A stretch of 41,527 nucleotides of DNA. Source: an uncultured Pseudomonadota bacterium (GTDB taxonomy: Bacteria > Pseudomonadota > Gammaproteobacteria > Burkholderiales > Thiobacillaceae). This document shows positions 32,136 through 39,909 of the stretch, one piece after another. The DNA lies in the NCBI GenBank assembly GCA_903835655.1, contig CAILNT010000042.1:1-41527 (forward strand), written 5' to 3'. The position numbers were made by a program, and so were the translations under genes. The notes beneath the pieces were generated by a model. It saw only the letters and a program-made list of their open reading frames with translations, was not told the DNA's origin and searched no databases. How positions within the stretch are numbered: position 1 is the first letter of the stretch; each line of letters starts with the position of its first letter.

Positions 32136-32620
32136 TGGTGCGTGGTGCTTACTCGTTTGCGCGCGTGCCCATCGCCACCGTGGCCGCCGAGTTGCAGGCA
32201 CTGGCCGAGCGTGAGTACGAGGAGGTCGGCCAGAAGGATCTGGCACGCCTGAACGTGGATTGGGATCGCTACCGCGAACTCGATGCCGCCGGGAATCTTG
32301 CCACCTTCATCGTCAAACGAGGGCACGGAAATGCGGGCCGGATCGTCGGCTACAGCGTGTTCGTGGTACAGACCCATATCCACTACCGAGATGCCCTGGT
32401 CGCCGCCAACAGCGCCGTCTATGTGGCGCCCGAGGCCCGCGCCGGGCGGATCGTACTGAAGCTGCTGCGCTACGCCGAGATCGGCCTCGAGGCCCAGGGC
32501 GTGCGCAAGATCTACTACCACGTGAAGCGCGAGCGCGACTTCGGGCCGCTGCTGGCGCACCTGGGTTACGAGGATGCCGAGCGCATGTTCGCCAAGGTGC
32601 TCGGCGGGGAGGAAGGCTGA
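32135..32620 (+). CDS. GNAT-like acetyltransferase in the tail operon
   Basis: A 161-aa protein with a GNAT-like core: FIVKRGHGNAGRIVGYSVFV and YVAPEARAGRIVLKLLRYAE (R/A-x-x-G-like CoA-binding loop), then VRKIYYHVKRERDFGPLLAH. It sits where lambda-like phages carry gpK (a peptidase/JAMM protein), between gpL-like and J-like genes, with TGATG overlaps on both sides. That placement implies it is made with the virion proteins. Substrate unknown: a tail protein, host target or small molecule are all possible. Confidence 0.75.
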   Translation: MVRGAYSFARVPIATVAAELQALAEREYEEVGQKDLARLNVDWDRYRELDAAGNLATFIVKRGHGNAGRIVGYSVFVVQTHIHYRDALVAANSAVYVAPEARAGRIVLKLLRYAEIGLEAQGVRKIYYHVKRERDFGPLLAHLGYEDAERMFAKVLGGEEG

Positions 32621-35600
32621 TGGCCGGCGTCGTGATCGGCGCCATCATCGGCTCGGCGGCTTCGGAGGTGGTAGGCGCCGCCGTGGCGGATGCGGTCACC
32701 TGGTCCCTGGTCGATGCCGGCGTAGCGATGGGCTCCGAGATCGCCGTGGGCAGTTTCATCGGCGGCGCGGCGGGCCTGGTGGCCGGCGGCCTGGCGAACA
32801 TGGCCGTGCAAACCCTGATCGGCCCCAACGCGCCGTCCCAGGCGCAGTCGGCGGTGGCATCCGCCCAGGCCCAGGGCATCCTCATCAACTCCCAGAGCAA
32901 CGTCGATCCGATCCCGGTCATCTACGGGCGGCGGCGGGTCGGCGGCACGCGTGTCTTCATCGAGGTGTCGGGCTCGAGCCACGAATACCTGCACGTAGTG
33001 ATCGTACTGGCCGAGGGGCCGGTGGCCGCCATCGACAACGTCTACATCGACGATGTGCTGTCCACCGACCCGAAGTTCGCGGGCCTGGTGACCATCAACA
33101 AACATCTCGGCACGGCGGGCGACGCGGCCGACGCCACGCTGATGGCGGCGGTGCCCAAGTGGACCTCCGCATGCACGCTTGCCGGCCTCGCCTACTTGTA
33201 CGTTCAGCTCAAGTACGACAGCAATGCCTTCTCCGGGCTGCCGACGATCACGGCGGACGTGCGCGGCCGCACCCTGTATGACCCGCGCGACGGCGGCACG
33301 CGCTACGGCAACAACCCGGCGCTGGTGGTGCGCGACTATCTGACGAATGCGCTGTACGGGCGGGGCATCACCGCGTCCAGTATCGACGACGCCAGCATCA
33401 CGGCGGCCGCCAATGCCTGCGACGTGCGCCTCACCGCGCCGGCCTACACCGACACCTGCACGGCCGATCCGGCGAGCGATCTGCTGACCTTCGCGCAGGC
33501 CGAGCCGATCGATACCGGTGACGGCCTGCGCTTCACCGCGACCGGCATGCTGCCGGCGCCGCTGGCAGCGGGCACGACCTATTACGCGATCAAGGCGACC
33601 GACACGACCTATCGGCTGGCGACCTCGGTGGGCTATGCCTTTGCCGGGACGGCACTCGATCTGACCGGTGCCGGCAGTGGCACGATCACGGTGGCGCATG
33701 TCGACTACGCCACCTATGCGGTGGATGGGGCGGTGGACACCAGTCAGACCGCCTACGACAACATCAAGGCGCTGCTCACCGCCTGCCGGGGCATGCTGGT
33801 CTTCTCGGCGGGCAAGTACCGGCTGGTCCTCGACCAGGCAGCCACGCCCGCCAGCTTCGGCTTCACCGAGGACAACATCACCGGCTCCTGGGTGATCACC
33901 CAGGCGGGCAAGCGCACCAAATTCAACCGGGTGACGGCGGGGTTCTACAACCCGGCCAAGATGTGGCAGCCGGATCTGGCCATGGTCGAATCCACCGCCC
34001 TGCGCGCCGTGGACAACGGCCTGCTGCTCGAGGCCAAGATCGACCTGCCGTTCACGGCCAATGGCTACCGGGCGCAGAACATCGGCCAGCAGACCCTCAA
34101 CCAGAGCCGCTACGGCCTGGTCGTCAAATTCGCCGCCTTCCAGGAGGGCCTGCGCTGCGAGGTGGGCGACGTGGTGCCGATCACCCACTCGACGCCTGGC
34201 TGGACGGGCAAGCTGTTCCGCATCCTGCAGATCGAGTTGAAGGACAACGACGAAGTGACGGTCGTTGCCCAGGAGTACGACCCGAGCGTCTATCAGCTTA
34301 CTAACCTCGCGCCGGCCTCGATCGTGCCGCGCTCGAACCTGCCGGACCCGTTCAGCGTCCCGTCGATCTCGGGCCTGACGCTGACCTCGGGCACCTCGGA
34401 ACTGCTGCGGCTCGGAGATGGCTCGATCATCTCGCGCATCAAGGCCGCCTGGAACCTGCCGGGCGATGCCTACGCGCAGAAGGGACAGGTCGAGATCCAG
34501 TTCAAGCGCGGTGCCGACCTCACCTGGACGCCGGCCGACGTGGTGGCCGCCGATCTCACCGCCACCTGGATCGCGCCGGTGCAGGACGGCATGAACTACG
34601 ACGTGCGACTGCGTTCGATCAACGCCATCGGCGTGCGCGGTCCCTGGACCCAGGCCAGCGTCACTGTGGTGGGCAAGACCGCGCCGCCATCCGATGTGGC
34701 GGCCGCCTCGGCCATGCTCCTGCCGGATGGCATCTTGCTGTCCTGGAGCCCAGTGACGGATGCGGACCTGGCCCAATACGAGATTCGCTCGGGCGGCACC
34801 AGCTTCGCCAATGCGCTGCTGGTGGCCACGGCGCGCACCACCCAGATCAAGCTGCCCATGGCCTCCGGCGGCAGCTACGTCTGGCGCATCAAGGCGGTCG
34901 ACACCAGTGGCAACTACTCCGCCAACGAGGCCGTCGCAAGCGTGACGGTCGTGACGGCGAGCGCCCCGGTCGTCACCCAGAGTTTCCTCGGCGACAGCGT
35001 AGTGCTGTCCTGGCCGGCGGTCACCGGCAGCTTTGCCACCGATCACTACGATCTTCGCACCGGCGGCACGTCCTGGGCCACCGCGATACCCCTGGCGAGT
35101 GTCGGCACGACCCTGTACTCGGAACGGGCGGTCTGGTCGGGCACCAGGAACTACTGGATCGCAGCGGTCGACACCTTCGGCAACGTCGGTCCCGCCGCCC
35201 TGGTCACGGCCTCGATCACGCCTGCTCCGGCGCCCGCCATCACGCAGCAGGTGATCGACAACACGGTCCTGCTCTACTGGAACCAGACCGGCGGATCGCT
35301 GCCGACGGCCACCTACGAGATCCGCAAGGGGCCGACCTGGGCGAGTGCGGCGCTGGTGGGGGCCAAGGCGGGCGGCTTCACCACGATCATGGAGACGGTG
35401 GCGGGGAGCTACACCTACTGGGTGTGCCCGATCGACACCGCCGGCAACTATGGCACGCCCGGATCGGTGGCGGCGACCGTCAGCGCCCCACCGGACTATG
35501 TCCTCAAGGCCAGCTACGCCACCACGTTCTCGGGCACGCGTTCGGCCATGGCCCCGGACATCGACGGCGGCTGGGTGATGCCGGTAAACGCCACGGAAAC

Positions 35601-36207
35601 TGTCCAGGGGCATTTCACGGCGCGCGCCTGGAACACCCCGCAGGATCAGGTGAACGGTGGATTCCCCCTGTTCATCCAGCCCAACCAGACGCCGGGCTAC
35701 TACGAGGAAGTGGTCGACTACGGCTCGGTGCTGGCCGGCTGCAAGATTACTGTGTCGGCCAATGGCCAAGCGGCGAGCGGCAGTCCGACCCTGGCCTGCG
35801 ACATCTCGGTGAGCAGCGATGGGGTCAATTACACCCTGAACCCGGGCGTCTGGCAGGTCTACGCCACCAACTTCCGCTACGTGAAATACCGCCTCACGGT
35901 CCGCGCCTCGGACTCGACCAGCCTGTACAAGCTGGCCGGGGCCAATGTCAGGCTGGACGTGAAGCTCAAGAACGACGGCGGCACGGTGGCCTGCAACGCC
36001 TCGGACGTGAACGGCACCAACGCGAGTTTCGCGGTGCCGTTCCTCAGCATCACCAGCATCACCCTGACGCCGGCAGGGACCACCCCGCTGACGGCGGTCT
36101 ACAACTTCTCCGGCGCGGCGAATCCCACCGGCTTCGCCGTGTTCCTCTTCAACAGTGCCGGACAGCGCGTGTCCGGCAACGTTTCCTGGTCTGCGAAGGG
36201 ATACTGA
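32620..36207 (+). CDS. Tail-tip/host-specificity protein J-like
   Basis: A 1195-aa protein. The first 75 residues are Gly/Ala-rich and hydrophobic (GAIIGSAASEVVGAAVADAV, a putative membrane-active segment). The J core starts near residue 85 (DPIPVIYGRRRVGGTRVFIE) and contains PALVVRDYLTNALYGRG. An inserted beta domain occupies residues about 290-365. Three fibronectin-III-like repeats follow (about 684-960; for example ILLSWSPVTDADLAQYEIRS), then a C-terminal beta-sandwich with receptor-binding character. It closes the tail and contacts the host. It overlaps the previous stop (TGATG). Confidence 0.9.
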   Translation: MAGVVIGAIIGSAASEVVGAAVADAVTWSLVDAGVAMGSEIAVGSFIGGAAGLVAGGLANMAVQTLIGPNAPSQAQSAVASAQAQGILINSQSNVDPIPVIYGRRRVGGTRVFIEVSGSSHEYLHVVIVLAEGPVAAIDNVYIDDVLSTDPKFAGLVTINKHLGTAGDAADATLMAAVPKWTSACTLAGLAYLYVQLKYDSNAFSGLPTITADVRGRTLYDPRDGGTRYGNNPALVVRDYLTNALYGRGITASSIDDASITAAANACDVRLTAPAYTDTCTADPASDLLTFAQAEPIDTGDGLRFTATGMLPAPLAAGTTYYAIKATDTTYRLATSVGYAFAGTALDLTGAGSGTITVAHVDYATYAVDGAVDTSQTAYDNIKALLTACRGMLVFSAGKYRLVLDQAATPASFGFTEDNITGSWVITQAGKRTKFNRVTAGFYNPAKMWQPDLAMVESTALRAVDNGLLLEAKIDLPFTANGYRAQNIGQQTLNQSRYGLVVKFAAFQEGLRCEVGDVVPITHSTPGWTGKLFRILQIELKDNDEVTVVAQEYDPSVYQLTNLAPASIVPRSNLPDPFSVPSISGLTLTSGTSELLRLGDGSIISRIKAAWNLPGDAYAQKGQVEIQFKRGADLTWTPADVVAADLTATWIAPVQDGMNYDVRLRSINAIGVRGPWTQASVTVVGKTAPPSDVAAASAMLLPDGILLSWSPVTDADLAQYEIRSGGTSFANALLVATARTTQIKLPMASGGSYVWRIKAVDTSGNYSANEAVASVTVVTASAPVVTQSFLGDSVVLSWPAVTGSFATDHYDLRTGGTSWATAIPLASVGTTLYSERAVWSGTRNYWIAAVDTFGNVGPAALVTASITPAPAPAITQQVIDNTVLLYWNQTGGSLPTATYEIRKGPTWASAALVGAKAGGFTTIMETVAGSYTYWVCPIDTAGNYGTPGSVAATVSAPPDYVLKASYATTFSGTRSAMAPDIDGGWVMPVNATETVQGHFTARAWNTPQDQVNGGFPLFIQPNQTPGYYEEVVDYGSVLAGCKITVSANGQAASGSPTLACDISVSSDGVNYTLNPGVWQVYATNFRYVKYRLTVRASDSTSLYKLAGANVRLDVKLKNDGGTVACNASDVNGTNASFAVPFLSITSITLTPAGTTPLTAVYNFSGAANPTGFAVFLFNSAGQRVSGNVSWSAKGY

Positions 36208-36208
36208 C

Positions 36209-37108
36209 ATGGCCGACTGGTCCAAACCCAGCCTCACCGACACCTATGCCAACTTCCTCGCCCTGCTCGGGGCAAGGGACACGGATCTCGCCGCCGGGCT
36301 CGACCCGGCCCGGGTTTCGGTGACCAACCCACCTGCCAATGCCATCCGCTGGAATTCCGCCAACGGCTATTGGGAATACTGGAACGGCACGGCCTGGGGC
36401 GTGCTGGCGGTGACCTACAACATCGTCGCGGCCCAGGCGGCGAAGCTCAAGACGCCAGCCACGATCTCGCTCACCGGCGACATCTCGGGCAGCGCCGGCT
36501 TCGACGGCAGCGCAGGTATCGCGATTGCCGCGACCCTGCCGAACGTGAATGCGAACGCCGGCACGGCGGGCAGCGCCACCACCGTGCCGGTGGTCACCAC
36601 CAATGCCAAGGGGCTGGTGACGGCGGTAGGGCAGGCACCGATCAGTTTCCCGGCGGCGCCAGTGACCTCCGTGTTCGGCCGCACCGGGGCGGTGACCCTG
36701 GCTTCCAGCGATGTCACCGGAGCACTCGGCTTTACCCCCCAGGCGGCGTTGGGCTTCACCCCCGTCCAGCAGGGGGGCGGCACCGGACAGGGGACCAACA
36801 AGGTCTACCTGGGCTGGTCGGGTTCGCAACTGAGCCTGCAGGTCGACAGCACCAACTTCGGTGCCACCTGGCCCATCGGCATCAGCGGCAATGCCGCGAC
36901 CGCGACCAGCGCCACCTCGGCCGCTTCCGCCACCGCCGTGCCCTGGACCGGCGTCTCGGGCAAGCCCACGGTGGTGAGCGCGGTCACCTGGCCGGGGTAT
37001 CCGGGCAGCTATCTCGCGCCACCCGCTTCCTATCAGATCAGCACGGTCACGATCTCCGGTAGCACGCTGGTCTTCACCACCAACTGCAACTGCAATTGCG
37101 GTTGCTGA
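36209..37108 (+). CDS. Tail fibre protein with C-terminal NCNCNCGC
   Basis: A 299-aa tail fibre or collar-type protein: N-terminal MADWSKPSLTDTYANFLALL, then repetitive Ala/Thr/Gly-rich beta-helix-like stretches (ISLTGDISGSAGFDGSAGIA, TSVFGRTGAVTLASSDVTGA, LGFTPQAALGFTPVQQGG). The last eight residues (292-299) are NCNCNCGC; no other cysteine is present in the protein. The clustering of four cysteines alternating with Asn/Gly at the extreme C-terminus is unusual for a fibre. It looks like a peptide substrate or metal-binding tip. It is followed at 37119 by an Ig-like protein, then an oxygenase and a radical SAM/SPASM enzyme, suggesting modification of this tail. Confidence 0.88.
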   Translation: MADWSKPSLTDTYANFLALLGARDTDLAAGLDPARVSVTNPPANAIRWNSANGYWEYWNGTAWGVLAVTYNIVAAQAAKLKTPATISLTGDISGSAGFDGSAGIAIAATLPNVNANAGTAGSATTVPVVTTNAKGLVTAVGQAPISFPAAPVTSVFGRTGAVTLASSDVTGALGFTPQAALGFTPVQQGGGTGQGTNKVYLGWSGSQLSLQVDSTNFGATWPIGISGNAATATSATSAASATAVPWTGVSGKPTVVSAVTWPGYPGSYLAPPASYQISTVTISGSTLVFTTNCNCNCGC

Positions 37109-37118
37109 AGGAGCGTCC

Positions 37119-37940
37119 ATGAACGTCTATCGCGTCCAGAACACCAACTTCACGCCGGCTCATGACCATCTGGTCGCGCTGAGCCTCGATTCCGCCGCCG
37201 CCCGGATCGGCATCGCCATCGGCTACCCCGAGCCGCCCACCGCTGAAGGCGGGGTTCCCGATCCGGCGAATCAGCGCAGCGCCAATGGCACCGATTATGG
37301 GATGACGCCGGCGCTGACCGTCGACTTCGCCGATCTGCGCGCCCGCCATGGCTGGTGCGACCATCAGGTCTACATCCTCGCCACCCAGGGCCGTTTCCCC
37401 ACCGGCCTGGCCGCTCCCATTCCCCTGTTCGCCTGCACCCTGACGGAACGGCTTGCACCGCACGACCTGGCGGTGCGCAACCAGTTCAACATCATTGCCG
37501 CCCTGGTGGTGCCCTTCAAGGCGAGCGGTTTCGACGACTGCAGCCTGCTCGTGAACCTCCCCGGAGACAAGGGTGCCCTGGTGGTCGACGCCGGCCCCGA
37601 GCCGATCGACCACGGCCCCGGCAGCCTGGCAGACATCTGGCCGGCGATGTTGCCGTCCATTCGTCTCGCCGGTCCGGCCACGGTGGCAGCGGGACAATCT
37701 GCACCGGTCACCGTCCAGCTGCTGGATGCCGGTGGCAGCCCGATCCAGAGGGCCGGGGTCGAGGTCTACTTCGAAGCGGTGTCCGGGTCGGTCAGCAAGG
37801 CGCGCGGCCTGACCGATGCCAGCGGTGCCTGCGCGCTGACCTGTTCCGCGCCGGGTCTGACGGCGGGTGATTCGCTGCGGGTGAAGGCAGGGTTCAAGTT
37901 CTATCCCGGCGTCGCCGACCTGGTCGTGGGGGTGGTGTGA
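37119..37940 (+). CDS. Virion-associated protein with Ig-like C-terminal domain
   Basis: A 273-aa protein of unknown function. The C-terminal 95 residues look like a Big_1/invasin-type Ig domain (RLAGPATVAAGQSAPVTVQL, AGVEVYFEAVSGSVSKARG, TDASGACALTCSAPGLTAGD). The N-terminal region (VQNTNFTPAHDHLVALSLDS, ADLRARHGWCDHQVYILAT) is not recognised. Ig domains are often grafted onto phage virion proteins for weak surface binding, so a fibre accessory or receptor-binding role is plausible. ATG follows AAGGAGC, 10 bp after the fibre stop, and its stop overlaps the oxygenase start. Confidence 0.78.
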   Translation: MNVYRVQNTNFTPAHDHLVALSLDSAAARIGIAIGYPEPPTAEGGVPDPANQRSANGTDYGMTPALTVDFADLRARHGWCDHQVYILATQGRFPTGLAAPIPLFACTLTERLAPHDLAVRNQFNIIAALVVPFKASGFDDCSLLVNLPGDKGALVVDAGPEPIDHGPGSLADIWPAMLPSIRLAGPATVAAGQSAPVTVQLLDAGGSPIQRAGVEVYFEAVSGSVSKARGLTDASGACALTCSAPGLTAGDSLRVKAGFKFYPGVADLVVGVV

Positions 37941-38533
37941 TGGCACGGGACCGAGTGATGGAACTCTTCCCGGTGCGCGCCATGGTGTGCGAGGACGTCC
38001 TGCCGGTCGCCGAATGCCAGCGTCTGGCCCAGGTAGCCCTGGCGGTGCACCACCGTCTGCATCCCTATCGTCTGCCCTACCGGCGTCCCGATCCGGTCAG
38101 CCTGGACGAATTGATGCCGGAGACCTTTGCACCCCTCTTCGATCTGGTGCGCGACAAGGTGAGGGTCGGTTTCGGCTGCGAGGTGGCCCACATGGTGGGC
38201 CGGGAACTGGTGCTCTGGAACGGCACCCACATGCCGCCCCATGTCGAGCACAACGACTTGTCCGCGATCCTCTGGCTTGACTACACGGCCGAGCCCGATC
38301 CGGAGCATTGGGACTACAACGGCCTGGTCACCCTGGTTAATCCGTCCGGTCCCTGGGGCTTCAAGGATCTGCCCTGGGAGCCGCCGCGCAGTCAGATGAT
38401 CGAACCCCGGGTCGGTGCCCTGGCCCTGTTCCCGAGCTATGTCACCCATTACATCCATCCCTACCGGGGAAGCCGACCCGGTGTGGAGATCCATTTCGAG
38501 ATGGACCTTCGTCCGGCGCACGGGAGGGGATGA
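37940..38533 (+). CDS. 2-oxoglutarate/Fe(II)-dependent oxygenase
   Basis: A 197-aa double-stranded beta-helix oxygenase. Iron ligands: H104-x-D106 (HVEHNDLSAILWLDY) and a distal His in FPSYVTHYIHPYRG (H170 or H173); R179 in GSRPGVEIHFEMD is placed for the 2-oxoglutarate carboxylate. It resembles 2OG-FeII_Oxy_5-like phage enzymes. Likely a protein or peptide hydroxylase; sugar or nucleotide substrates cannot be excluded. It is coupled by overlap to both neighbours (TGATG upstream, ATGA downstream), so it is made with the radical SAM enzyme. An in-frame GTG at 37937 is a weaker start. Confidence 0.85.
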   Translation: MARDRVMELFPVRAMVCEDVLPVAECQRLAQVALAVHHRLHPYRLPYRRPDPVSLDELMPETFAPLFDLVRDKVRVGFGCEVAHMVGRELVLWNGTHMPPHVEHNDLSAILWLDYTAEPDPEHWDYNGLVTLVNPSGPWGFKDLPWEPPRSQMIEPRVGALALFPSYVTHYIHPYRGSRPGVEIHFEMDLRPAHGRG

Positions 38534-39909
38534 CGATGCCGATCTTCACGCTCTATTGCGAGAATCCGGAAACCGGGCTGCGTGCCCGGTTTTTTTATGA
38601 CAACCTGACCAGCGAACTGCTGCGCGAGGACGGCTCACCGGTCTTGCCGCCGGCCGACACGGCACCCTCCGGCGACCCGATCCATTTCGTGTCCAGGGAC
38701 GTGCCCGGCATCAAGTCCGCCCCCCTGACCCTCAAAATCCAGCTCGGCCTCGGCTGCAACCATGCCTGCAGCTACTGTAACCAGCGCGGCCAGGCCGAGG
38801 GGGCGCGAGCGGCGCGTGGCGCGGATGTCGAGCGCTTCCTGTCGGGACTGTCAGGCTGGTTCGATGGCGGCGCGCAGGGTGACGGCAACGGTTGCCGGAT
38901 CGAGTTCTGGGGTGGTGAGCCGCTGGTCTACCGCAAGACGCTGGTGCCCCTGGCCGAGGTGCTGCGCGCGCGTTACCCGAAGGCGTTGTTCAGCCTGATC
39001 ACCAATGGCAGCCTGCTGGATCGTGAGATCAACGCCTGGCTCGACGACCTCGGCTTCCATGTCGGGGTATCCCACGACGGGCCAGGGCAATCCATGCGCG
39101 GCCCCGACCCGCTGACCGTCCCCGAAAACCTCGATGCGATCCGTGACCTGTACCGGCGCCTGCATCCGCAGGGGCGTTTCTCGTTCAACGTGATGCTTCA
39201 CAGGGGTAATCCGAGTCGGGCGGCCATCAACAGTTACTTCCTGAACCTGACCGGCGATCCCACAGTGGCGATCGGCGAGGGCAGTTTTATTGATCCCTAC
39301 GATGCAGGTGGCCTGAGCCATTCCTTCCTGAGCGATGCCGAGTCGCTCGCCTTCCGGCGCGAGGCCTTCGCCGACCTGCGCCATGGCCGCGCGCCCAACT
39401 TTGCGCTCGTGCCGCAGCGCCTGGCCGGCATCATCGATGGCATTGCGCGCCGGCGTCCAGCGGCGCACCTGGGGCAGAAGTGCGGCATGGACCGGAGCGA
39501 CGCCCTCGCGGTGGATCTGAATGGCCAGGTGCTCACCTGCCAGAACGTGTCCAGCCGAACGATTGCGCCCAATGGCAGGCCGCACCGCATCGGCCACGTG
39601 GCGAACCTCGATGGTGTCCGCCTCGACACGGCGACCCACTGGTCTCATCGCGGGGAATGCGTGAACTGCCCCGTCCTGCAGTCGTGCCGGGGCGCGTGCA
39701 TGTTCCTGGATGGTGTGCTGTGGGAGGCGGGCTGCAACAACGCCTTCGCCGACCATCTGCCGTTCTTCGCGGCGGCGATCGAGCATCTGACGGGAACCAT
39801 GCCGTTTTACATCGACGGTCCGCAGCGCGAGTCGCGCCGGGACATCTTCGGACTGATCACAGAAGCCCACCAAGCCGCCCATCCGAGCACCGAGGCCGCA
39901 TCCGTTTAG
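38530..39909 (+). CDS. Radical SAM/SPASM maturase
   Basis: A 459-aa radical SAM enzyme. The SAM cluster motif C76-x3-C80-x2-C83 (GLGCNHACSYCNQRG) follows an N-terminal 65-residue extension, and FWGGEP follows near residue 125. The C-terminal SPASM domain is complete: C318-x13-G-x4-C337, then C377-x2-C380-x5-C386-x3-C390, and C402, the seven-Cys pattern that binds two auxiliary 4Fe-4S clusters. SPASM maturases modify peptides or proteins (thioether crosslinks, C-C bonds, epimerisation, formylglycine). Its nearest candidate substrate is the NCNCNCGC-ended fibre encoded three genes upstream. ATG at 38530 (or 38536). Last gene before a terminator and the lysis genes. Confidence 0.93.
   Translation: MTMPIFTLYCENPETGLRARFFYDNLTSELLREDGSPVLPPADTAPSGDPIHFVSRDVPGIKSAPLTLKIQLGLGCNHACSYCNQRGQAEGARAARGADVERFLSGLSGWFDGGAQGDGNGCRIEFWGGEPLVYRKTLVPLAEVLRARYPKALFSLITNGSLLDREINAWLDDLGFHVGVSHDGPGQSMRGPDPLTVPENLDAIRDLYRRLHPQGRFSFNVMLHRGNPSRAAINSYFLNLTGDPTVAIGEGSFIDPYDAGGLSHSFLSDAESLAFRREAFADLRHGRAPNFALVPQRLAGIIDGIARRRPAAHLGQKCGMDRSDALAVDLNGQVLTCQNVSSRTIAPNGRPHRIGHVANLDGVRLDTATHWSHRGECVNCPVLQSCRGACMFLDGVLWEAGCNNAFADHLPFFAAAIEHLTGTMPFYIDGPQRESRRDIFGLITEAHQAAHPSTEAASV

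Follow-up and report, generated by a model that had tools for sequence, protein, structure and literature searches.

A phage tail-protein tip of alternating cysteines, probably matured by a dedicated radical SAM enzyme

Why does a phage tail fibre carry all of its cysteines at its very end, and what does the radical S-adenosylmethionine (SAM) enzyme encoded shortly downstream do there? The locus in question lies on contig CAILNT010000042.1, which was analysed in its entirety (41,527 bases, hereafter the window) and belongs to a 3.67-Mb genome. Terminase, portal, capsid, tape measure and repressor genes mark the window as a contig of a tailed phage or prophage. An initial annotation of the locus had suggested that phage-encoded enzymes modify the Cys-Asn tip of the fibre. 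The dedication of enzyme and tip to each other is strongly supported by the three genomic tests described below, whereas we infer that the enzyme acts on the tract, which reaction it performs and what the other genes do. The enzyme and the tip tract are genomically paired, with specificity in both directions. We consider it likely that the locus encodes a phage system for maturing the tip of a tail protein, in which a dedicated radical SAM enzyme acts on an (X-Cys)n strand, most likely by forming thioethers.

The 299-residue fibre terminates in ...VFTTNCNCNCGC. As the initial annotation had it, its four cysteines, the only ones in the protein, all lie within the last eight residues. The chance that four randomly placed cysteines would all fall there is 70/3.26e8, or ~2e-7. 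The elements at the centre of the argument are the following.

36209-37108, + strand: tail fibre or tip protein, 299 residues, bearer of the Cys tract; PHROG tail-fibre matches in its body.
37082-37105, + strand: C-terminal alternating tract NCNCNCGC, the proposed enzyme substrate; equivalent tracts occur in related loci.
38530-39909, + strand: radical SAM/SPASM enzyme, 459 residues; phrog_1802, 2.8e-55.
38755-38778, + strand: SAM-cluster motif CX3CX2C (Cys76, 80, 83), invariant in 41/41 sequences.
39481-39735, + strand: seven-Cys SPASM motif (Cys318, 337, 377, 380, 386, 390, 402), invariant in 41/41.

The first test starts from the enzyme. Among 50,697 named-phage records, relatives were found in three records from two phages (Achromobacter phages JWF and 2-1; 44-45% identity), and three other queries returned the identical three records. 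In both phages a fibre precedes the enzyme, and its Cys tract, ...NCNCDCNCNCSCFPAGT..., continues directly into a Hint domain. Searching with a five-enzyme profile recovered 46 genome loci and at least 555 viral stretches, of which 80 were kept. The system is common in viral contigs: of 600 pattern-matched stretches that were inspected from one viral collection, at least 555 encode an enzyme relative. Bacterial genomes with the system belong to several Proteobacteria groups; no plasmid relatives of it were found. Clustering the enzymes at 80% identity gave 89 clusters, 76 of them with at least 2.5 kb of upstream sequence, and a tract was present in 67. Copies of the window itself and duplicates (L001-L004, L007-L009, L011-L014) and radical SAM matches below 100 bits were left out, a floor that removes most phrog_1802 loci. 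The expectation of the initial annotation that neighbours of related enzymes would carry the Cys tract holds in 50 of 57 non-redundant clusters, these being the clusters among the 76 whose representative came from enzyme searches; here, the tract is C-terminal or directly before a Hint domain and within 7 kb. Further negatives in the 76 are L182, with a tract 7.1 kb off, and L188, with a tract before a non-Hint region.

One of the seven negatives among the 57, L097, has a fibre with the variant end ACNCAGGACDCG. The remaining six (L059, L062, L063, L070, L072 and L159) are divergent, tract-less homologues of 306-420 bits, and their Pfam-nameable neighbours include no phage genes. The two from Ramlibacter (L062, L063) adjoin YcaO-nitroreductase fusions. 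YcaO enzymes occur in Cys-modifying peptide clusters, so these neighbours fit with a family of peptide maturases. L059 is accompanied by an ABC transporter and a 1903-residue RTX repeat protein, L159 lies beside flagellar genes, L072 beside two further radical SAM genes, and L070 beside a phosphoesterase and two neighbours without a Pfam match. Possibly, these six loci are undescribed peptide clusters. Elsewhere in these six genomes, the Cys pattern has matches in two, solely to Ala-Cys repeats; in one of these two genomes, the reversed control pattern is matched as well. An enzyme tree was built from the window and 77 of the 89 representatives, 78 sequences in total. It contains a 51-row clade with support 100/97, in which the tract is present in 49 rows and a variant in 2. 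Outside this clade, the six tract-less enzymes fall into two groups nested among other tract-bearing lineages; L016 and L024 are also labelled tract-less in the tree, with 1.1-1.3 kb upstream that is too short to judge. Homologues that regularly lack a Cys-repeat protein, which the initial annotation had named as evidence against its proposal, are not seen in the phage-borne clade; the six divergent homologues outside it do lack a tract.

The second test runs from the tract to the enzyme. Searching the viral collection for DNA that would encode NCNCNCxC gave at least 120 stretches, as did each control pattern; 21 of the 120 listed stretches have no open reading frame (ORF) containing the motif. 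We counted ORFs of at least 70 residues in which the tract is C-terminal or Hint-bound and which are followed by at least 3 kb of sequence, and detected the enzyme with a hidden Markov model built from only five enzymes of the first test. Among the matches listed, to which all counts in this paragraph refer, the enzyme is present on the same strand in 44/44 cases from 29 enzyme clusters, at a distance of up to 3 kb in 42 and of 4.9 and 7.1 kb in the others. When the tract may stand at any position in the protein, the enzyme accompanies 45 of 47, one miss being a 482-residue ORF (L172). For tracts away from the C-terminus the figure is 1/8. Dropping the 70-residue floor adds six terminal tracts in ORFs of 30-68 residues, none with an enzyme, which we take for chance frames. 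Control repeats at any position have no enzyme near them, with 0/34 for (AC)4, a weak control whose frames look largely non-coding, and 0/60 for NGNGNGxG.

The third test follows the fibre body. The queries were the N-terminal 133 residues of one fibre, or 170 in the case of the window fibre, and a total of 82 loci was collected (the first search contributed the best 80 of 249 matches). For 55 loci the fibre is complete and followed by 3.5 kb of sequence. Tip and enzyme occur together in 35 of these, many of which are close relatives, and both are missing in 19; the tip alone is found in none and the enzyme alone in one. In this single case (L579, IMGVR 2799112299_000001) the tip sequence is NCNCDRNCGC and the enzyme gene is split into three frame pieces, which looks like joint decay of tip and enzyme or a sequencing fault. 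Fibre relatives without a Cys tip also lack the enzyme in G588, within the 9.4 kb examined, and in the record of Curvibacter phage P26059A.

These counts bear on the idea that the enzyme and the Cys-tip fibre are co-travelling cargo with no action on each other, as might be supposed of two genes in one tail operon whose tip bodies are mostly related. Against this, gene order varies, with the tip after the enzyme in L073 and L077 and the Ig-like gene introduced below after the enzyme in L206 and L218. Moreover, 19 of 20 tipless fibre relatives are without the enzyme and the remaining one has a broken enzyme gene, and the closer tipless relatives G588 and P26059A are without it too. We regard mere neighbourhood as highly improbable.

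In representative loci the tract itself spans 3-10 units, most commonly 4-5, and the X residues (n=421) are Asn 286, Ala 55, Asp 46, Gln 8 and Ser 5, with all others at 4 or fewer. The tip proteins are mostly structural and 80-616 residues long, and the 82 bodies fall into 11 single-linkage families, the largest with 65 members. In the window the tract is encoded by AAC TGC AAC TGC AAT TGC GGT TGC, an imperfect DNA repeat. An origin by chance or as a microsatellite was rejected, as perfect hexamer repeats occur in 2/80 tracts and AAC/AAT and TGC/TGT codons are mixed. Because of this mixture, we take the tract to be maintained as protein sequence.

Similar tracts occur in other settings. In L155 and L156, three successive short proteins, each with its own terminal NC tract, precede one enzyme. 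Unrelated small proteins with KNCNCNCHC or similar sequences (L167-L170, L175, L186, L201, L217) are probably metal-binding; no radical SAM gene is present in the stretches examined, which are mostly short downstream. In L182 (IMGVR 3300009135_000020), L269 and L189, an ORF of 67-82 residues with a terminal NCNCNC-type tract stands beside divergent radical SAM genes. L182 has four of these within ~7 kb, and loci of this type have the look of a peptide-maturation cluster, not of a fibre operon.

What kind of enzyme, then, is paired with the tract? It is the single member of its radical SAM family in the window's genome and passes the thresholds of Pfam Radical_SAM (PF04055; 32.5 bits against a cut-off of 29.5) and NCBIfam SPASM TIGR04085 (29.1 against 27). 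Exactly ten cysteines are conserved across 41 enzyme sequences, three of the SAM cluster and seven of SPASM, and in every other alignment column fewer than 25% of the sequences have Cys. The complete seven-Cys SPASM domain described in the initial annotation is therefore present, with an invariant spacing of C318-x13-G332-x4-C337, C377xxC380x5C386x3C390 and C402; the motif is given in the literature as CX9-15GX4C-gap-CX2CX5CX3C-gap-C (PMC6231123). A predicted model of the enzyme (predicted local distance difference test, pLDDT, 94) matches radical SAM folds. Sulfatase maturases rank top in the fold search, with anSMEcpe best (Foldseek 7.6e-13), followed by 5why, ChlB, SkfB and SuiB. Among solved structures, the chains closest in sequence are 8vpo (TigE), the anaerobic sulfatase maturase anSME and 5wgg, which we take to be CteB. 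Weak NCBIfam neighbours, all far below their own cut-offs, are peptide maturases such as PapB.

The fold search bears on a first alternative reaction, conversion of the tip cysteines to formylglycine as in anSME, whose aldehydes could bond host amines or sugars. In its favour, anSMEcpe structures are the best matches, the JWF homologue is annotated as a sulfatase maturase and repeated cysteines would amount to repeated targets. However, the additional Aux I (auxiliary cluster I) Cys of anSME is absent from the window enzyme in the SPASM alignment, as it is from 5wgg. The residue following the second SPASM Cys is Gln in 37, His in 2 and Asn in 2 of 41 sequences and never Asp, which acts as a base in anSME at this position. 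The tract also lacks CxPxR, the sulfatase target motif of these maturases, and the Pfam and NCBIfam matches of the cassette genes include no sulfatase, in agreement with the initial annotation. Judged by its sequence, which has neither an eight-Cys SPASM nor the Asp, the enzyme is not an anSME, and we think it unlikely that formylglycine is the product.

A second alternative is that the enzyme epimerises alternate residues of the tract, which would yield a D/L beta-helix like polytheonamide or gramicidin and hence a membrane-inserting needle. The strict alternation and the dominance of Asn would suit this, and the enzyme has a sequence match to the epimerase YydG/EpeE (2.6e-7). The combination of radical SAM enzyme and oxygenase also resembles the toolkit of the proteusin polytheonamide, in whose maturation radical SAM and hydroxylating enzymes act on an Asn-rich repetitive core. 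Peptide epimerases use a Cys as hydrogen donor (EpeE C223A appears in structure entry titles), yet all ten conserved cysteines of the present family fit the cluster motifs, leaving no eleventh for this purpose. In contrast to the proteusin case, the window enzyme thus has no conserved extra Cys for epimerisation, and the substrate would be a tail protein. Epimerisation would also leave the requirement for Cys at alternate positions unexplained, and we find it quite improbable.

Thioether formation, the reaction we favour, places the enzyme next to SPASM thioether maturases of the CteB, PapB and QhpD type. These share with it a radical SAM core, seven SPASM cysteines and presumably an open Aux I, together with a Cys-rich repetitive substrate region and adjacent genes. 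They differ in that the window substrate is a phage structural protein, that no leader or RiPP recognition element (RRE; RiPP, ribosomally synthesised and post-translationally modified peptide) is seen, and that the tract alternates instead of following CX3D. In CteB, Aux I is reported to have three Cys ligands and an open site that binds the substrate Cys, whereas Aux I has four in anSME, where it is fully ligated, and in SuiB (PMC6231123, PMC10452713). The Cys count, which is as in CteB, favours thioether formation without proving it.

In the mechanism we propose, the starting point is the alternating (X-Cys)n strand in which the tip protein terminates, with X mostly Asn, then Ala or Asp. 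The fibre tip would first be made and then bound by the enzyme without an evident leader. The enzyme would take a hydrogen from X and join a Cys sulfur there, giving a thioether of the ranthipeptide/sactionine type, and the crosslinked tip may be rigid, knotted and non-reducible. PapB links Cys to Asp within Cys-X3-Asp (PMC8172795). In a strictly alternating tract, residue i+4 is itself a Cys, so the thioether spacing would have to be odd, a new topology.

Several observations weigh against this proposal. The CX3D spacing of PapB is impossible in a strictly alternating tract, and Ala, an unlikely thioether acceptor, occupies 55/421 X positions. The thioether product is a prediction from sequence, and, as noted above, it is sulfatase maturases that top the fold search. 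An RRE-like winged helix is not evident in the enzyme, where model residues 1-62 contain strands only; RRE families are likewise absent among its NCBIfam and Pfam matches, and no short leader-bearing precursor was found. With neither leader nor RRE found, the system is not a standard RiPP. The association could reflect a co-inherited module. All 19 loci with neither tip nor enzyme match only part of query residues 41-133 and are therefore weak controls, and the loci are less independent than cluster counts suggest because 65/82 tip bodies belong to one single-linkage family. Lastly, the nested tract-less enzymes indicate that the family can act on something else.

Could the tract function by itself? 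It may be a trimeric needle whose cysteines bind metal or Fe-S or pair as disulfides, with the enzyme only helping or modifying another nearby protein. Alternation puts every Cys on one face of a beta-strand, as such a needle would need. Fibre needles that bind iron via HxH repeats are known, as in T4 gp37-type fibres, where the residues alternate at the extreme tip; the window tip has Cys in place of His and, in addition, a dedicated radical enzyme. A further precedent is the disulfide network reported for the tail of phage Milano (PMC10811340). However, disulfides or metal need no dedicated radical SAM enzyme, which here accompanies all 44 of the C-terminal tracts counted above, and we consider an unmodified Cys needle rather improbable. 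In a trimer, the Cys faces of the strands would line the axis. We are evenly divided over a more specific version of the thioether reading, in which alternating (Asn-Cys)n strands at the fibre end, presumably three per tip, are stitched by multiple Cys thioethers into a needle resistant to oxidants and reductants, with which the phage would touch or pierce the host surface. Some of these tips would also be hydroxylated, and some would be released by a Hint domain.

The other genes of the cassette vary more than the enzyme. In the window, the neighbours of tip and enzyme are as follows.

32617-36207: central tail fibre J-like gene, directly before the 299-residue fibre; phrog_31, 9.8e-90.
37119-37940, + strand: partner protein, 273 residues, with a beta-rich N-terminal part and an immunoglobulin (Ig)-like C-terminal part.
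37940-38533, + strand: 2-oxoglutarate (2OG)-Fe(II)-oxygenase-like protein, 197 residues from its ATG; phrog_81, 3.5e-7.

A GTG is listed as an alternative start of the oxygenase-like ORF, 3 bases upstream of the ATG. The order fibre, Ig-like protein, 2OG-like protein and SPASM radical SAM enzyme is as first annotated, including the overlap of the last three genes at their stop and start codons (TGATG at 37938-37942 and ATGA at 38530-38533). A gap of 10 bases separates the fibre stop from the start of the Ig-like gene. Downstream of the radical SAM gene follow a gene without functional assignment and an endolysin. A second prophage-like contig of the same genome encodes a fibre whose start is 80% identical over 179 residues and whose end is different; this related gene (L007:5700-5859, G000 contig 57) is cut at its end by an apparent insertion sequence.

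The Ig-like protein stays below Pfam cut-offs (Invasin_D3 23.1/33, Big_1 21.2/34.9), and its AlphaFold model (pLDDT 93) gives only poor whole-chain matches, all to Ig domains and with Intimin Ig-type domains first. Of 68 tip loci, 49 encode a homologue, which in 45 lies no more than 1.2 kb past the tip. In 12 loci it is replaced by an unrelated protein of ~230-290 residues (L126:6216-6968 and 11 homologues). Homology between the two was considered and went undetected (hhalign probability 0.2%). Across 69 loci, 49 have the Ig-like protein, 12 the replacement, none both and 8 neither, and this mutual exclusion suggests a shared role. As a guess, that role may be to chaperone or cap the finished tip.

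The window's 2OG protein falls under the PF13759 cut-off (22.7/27), and the same-position homologue in L034 is above it (31.6). His101 and His170 are invariant in 32 sequences, and the residue at the second ligand varies. Of 68 tip loci, 38 encode a PF13759-like oxygenase on the same strand, which in 32 stands between tip and enzyme; L041 has a PF13640 oxygenase in its place. The radical enzyme is constant, and oxygenases are common but optional. Where encoded, they probably hydroxylate X of the tract. The hydroxylation put forward in the initial annotation would accordingly be an optional step at most.

In 9 of the 68 tip loci, the window not among them, the tract runs into a Hint domain, with which the protein then terminates. 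JWF and 2-1 match Hint PF05203 with 47.5 and 46.6 against a cut-off of 32.1. The block-B His is kept in 10/10 aligned sequences; Cys1 is present by construction, the sequences having been cut there. The initial Cys, the block-B His and the terminal position are shared with Hint autoprocessing domains of the BIL and Hedgehog type. They differ in that the Hint Cys of the tip proteins directly continues the alternating tract. The domain probably self-cleaves at the end of the tract, in which case every version of the tip would end in an exposed Cys tract. Several extra proteins, mostly without a Pfam name, are encoded near tip and enzyme in L137:1857-6340 and L085:3326-6959; two products there have desaturase-like histidine boxes by eye and no Pfam match.

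How does this relate to what is known of radical SAM genes in phages? The window enzyme belongs to phrog_1802 (radical SAM domain proteins), an entry that gives only the domain name, and the link to a Cys tip is added here. In environmental phages, radical SAM genes have been reported as metabolic or unexplained genes. Published cases are radical SAM cassettes in the host-recognition region of pelagic phages (PMC7029224) and twelve such genes in a single T4-like genome (PMC5332604). Baltic viruses are reported to carry an auxiliary gene named ahbD, for which only three of the contigs with both radical SAM domains survived the authors' taxonomy filter (PMC9301287). Achromobacter phage JWF is cultured and is reported to be reinducible (PMC3899368). 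In the open-access literature, subscription journals and preprints aside, we found no link between a radical SAM gene and a Cys-repeat virion protein. We know of no other virus particle with radical SAM chemistry. We regard the pairing as a new kind of phage system, built on a well-known enzyme superfamily.

Taken together, our findings assign a specific candidate structural substrate to one large group of radical SAM genes. If the proposed maturation is true, this would be, to our knowledge, the first virus particle completed through radical SAM chemistry, and a function would emerge for genes of this kind that are at present catalogued as viral auxiliary metabolic genes. For peptide chemistry, the system would provide a large natural collection of enzymes paired with their substrates. 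It would also add a new post-translational modification of virions and hint at how tail tips harden or become reactive.

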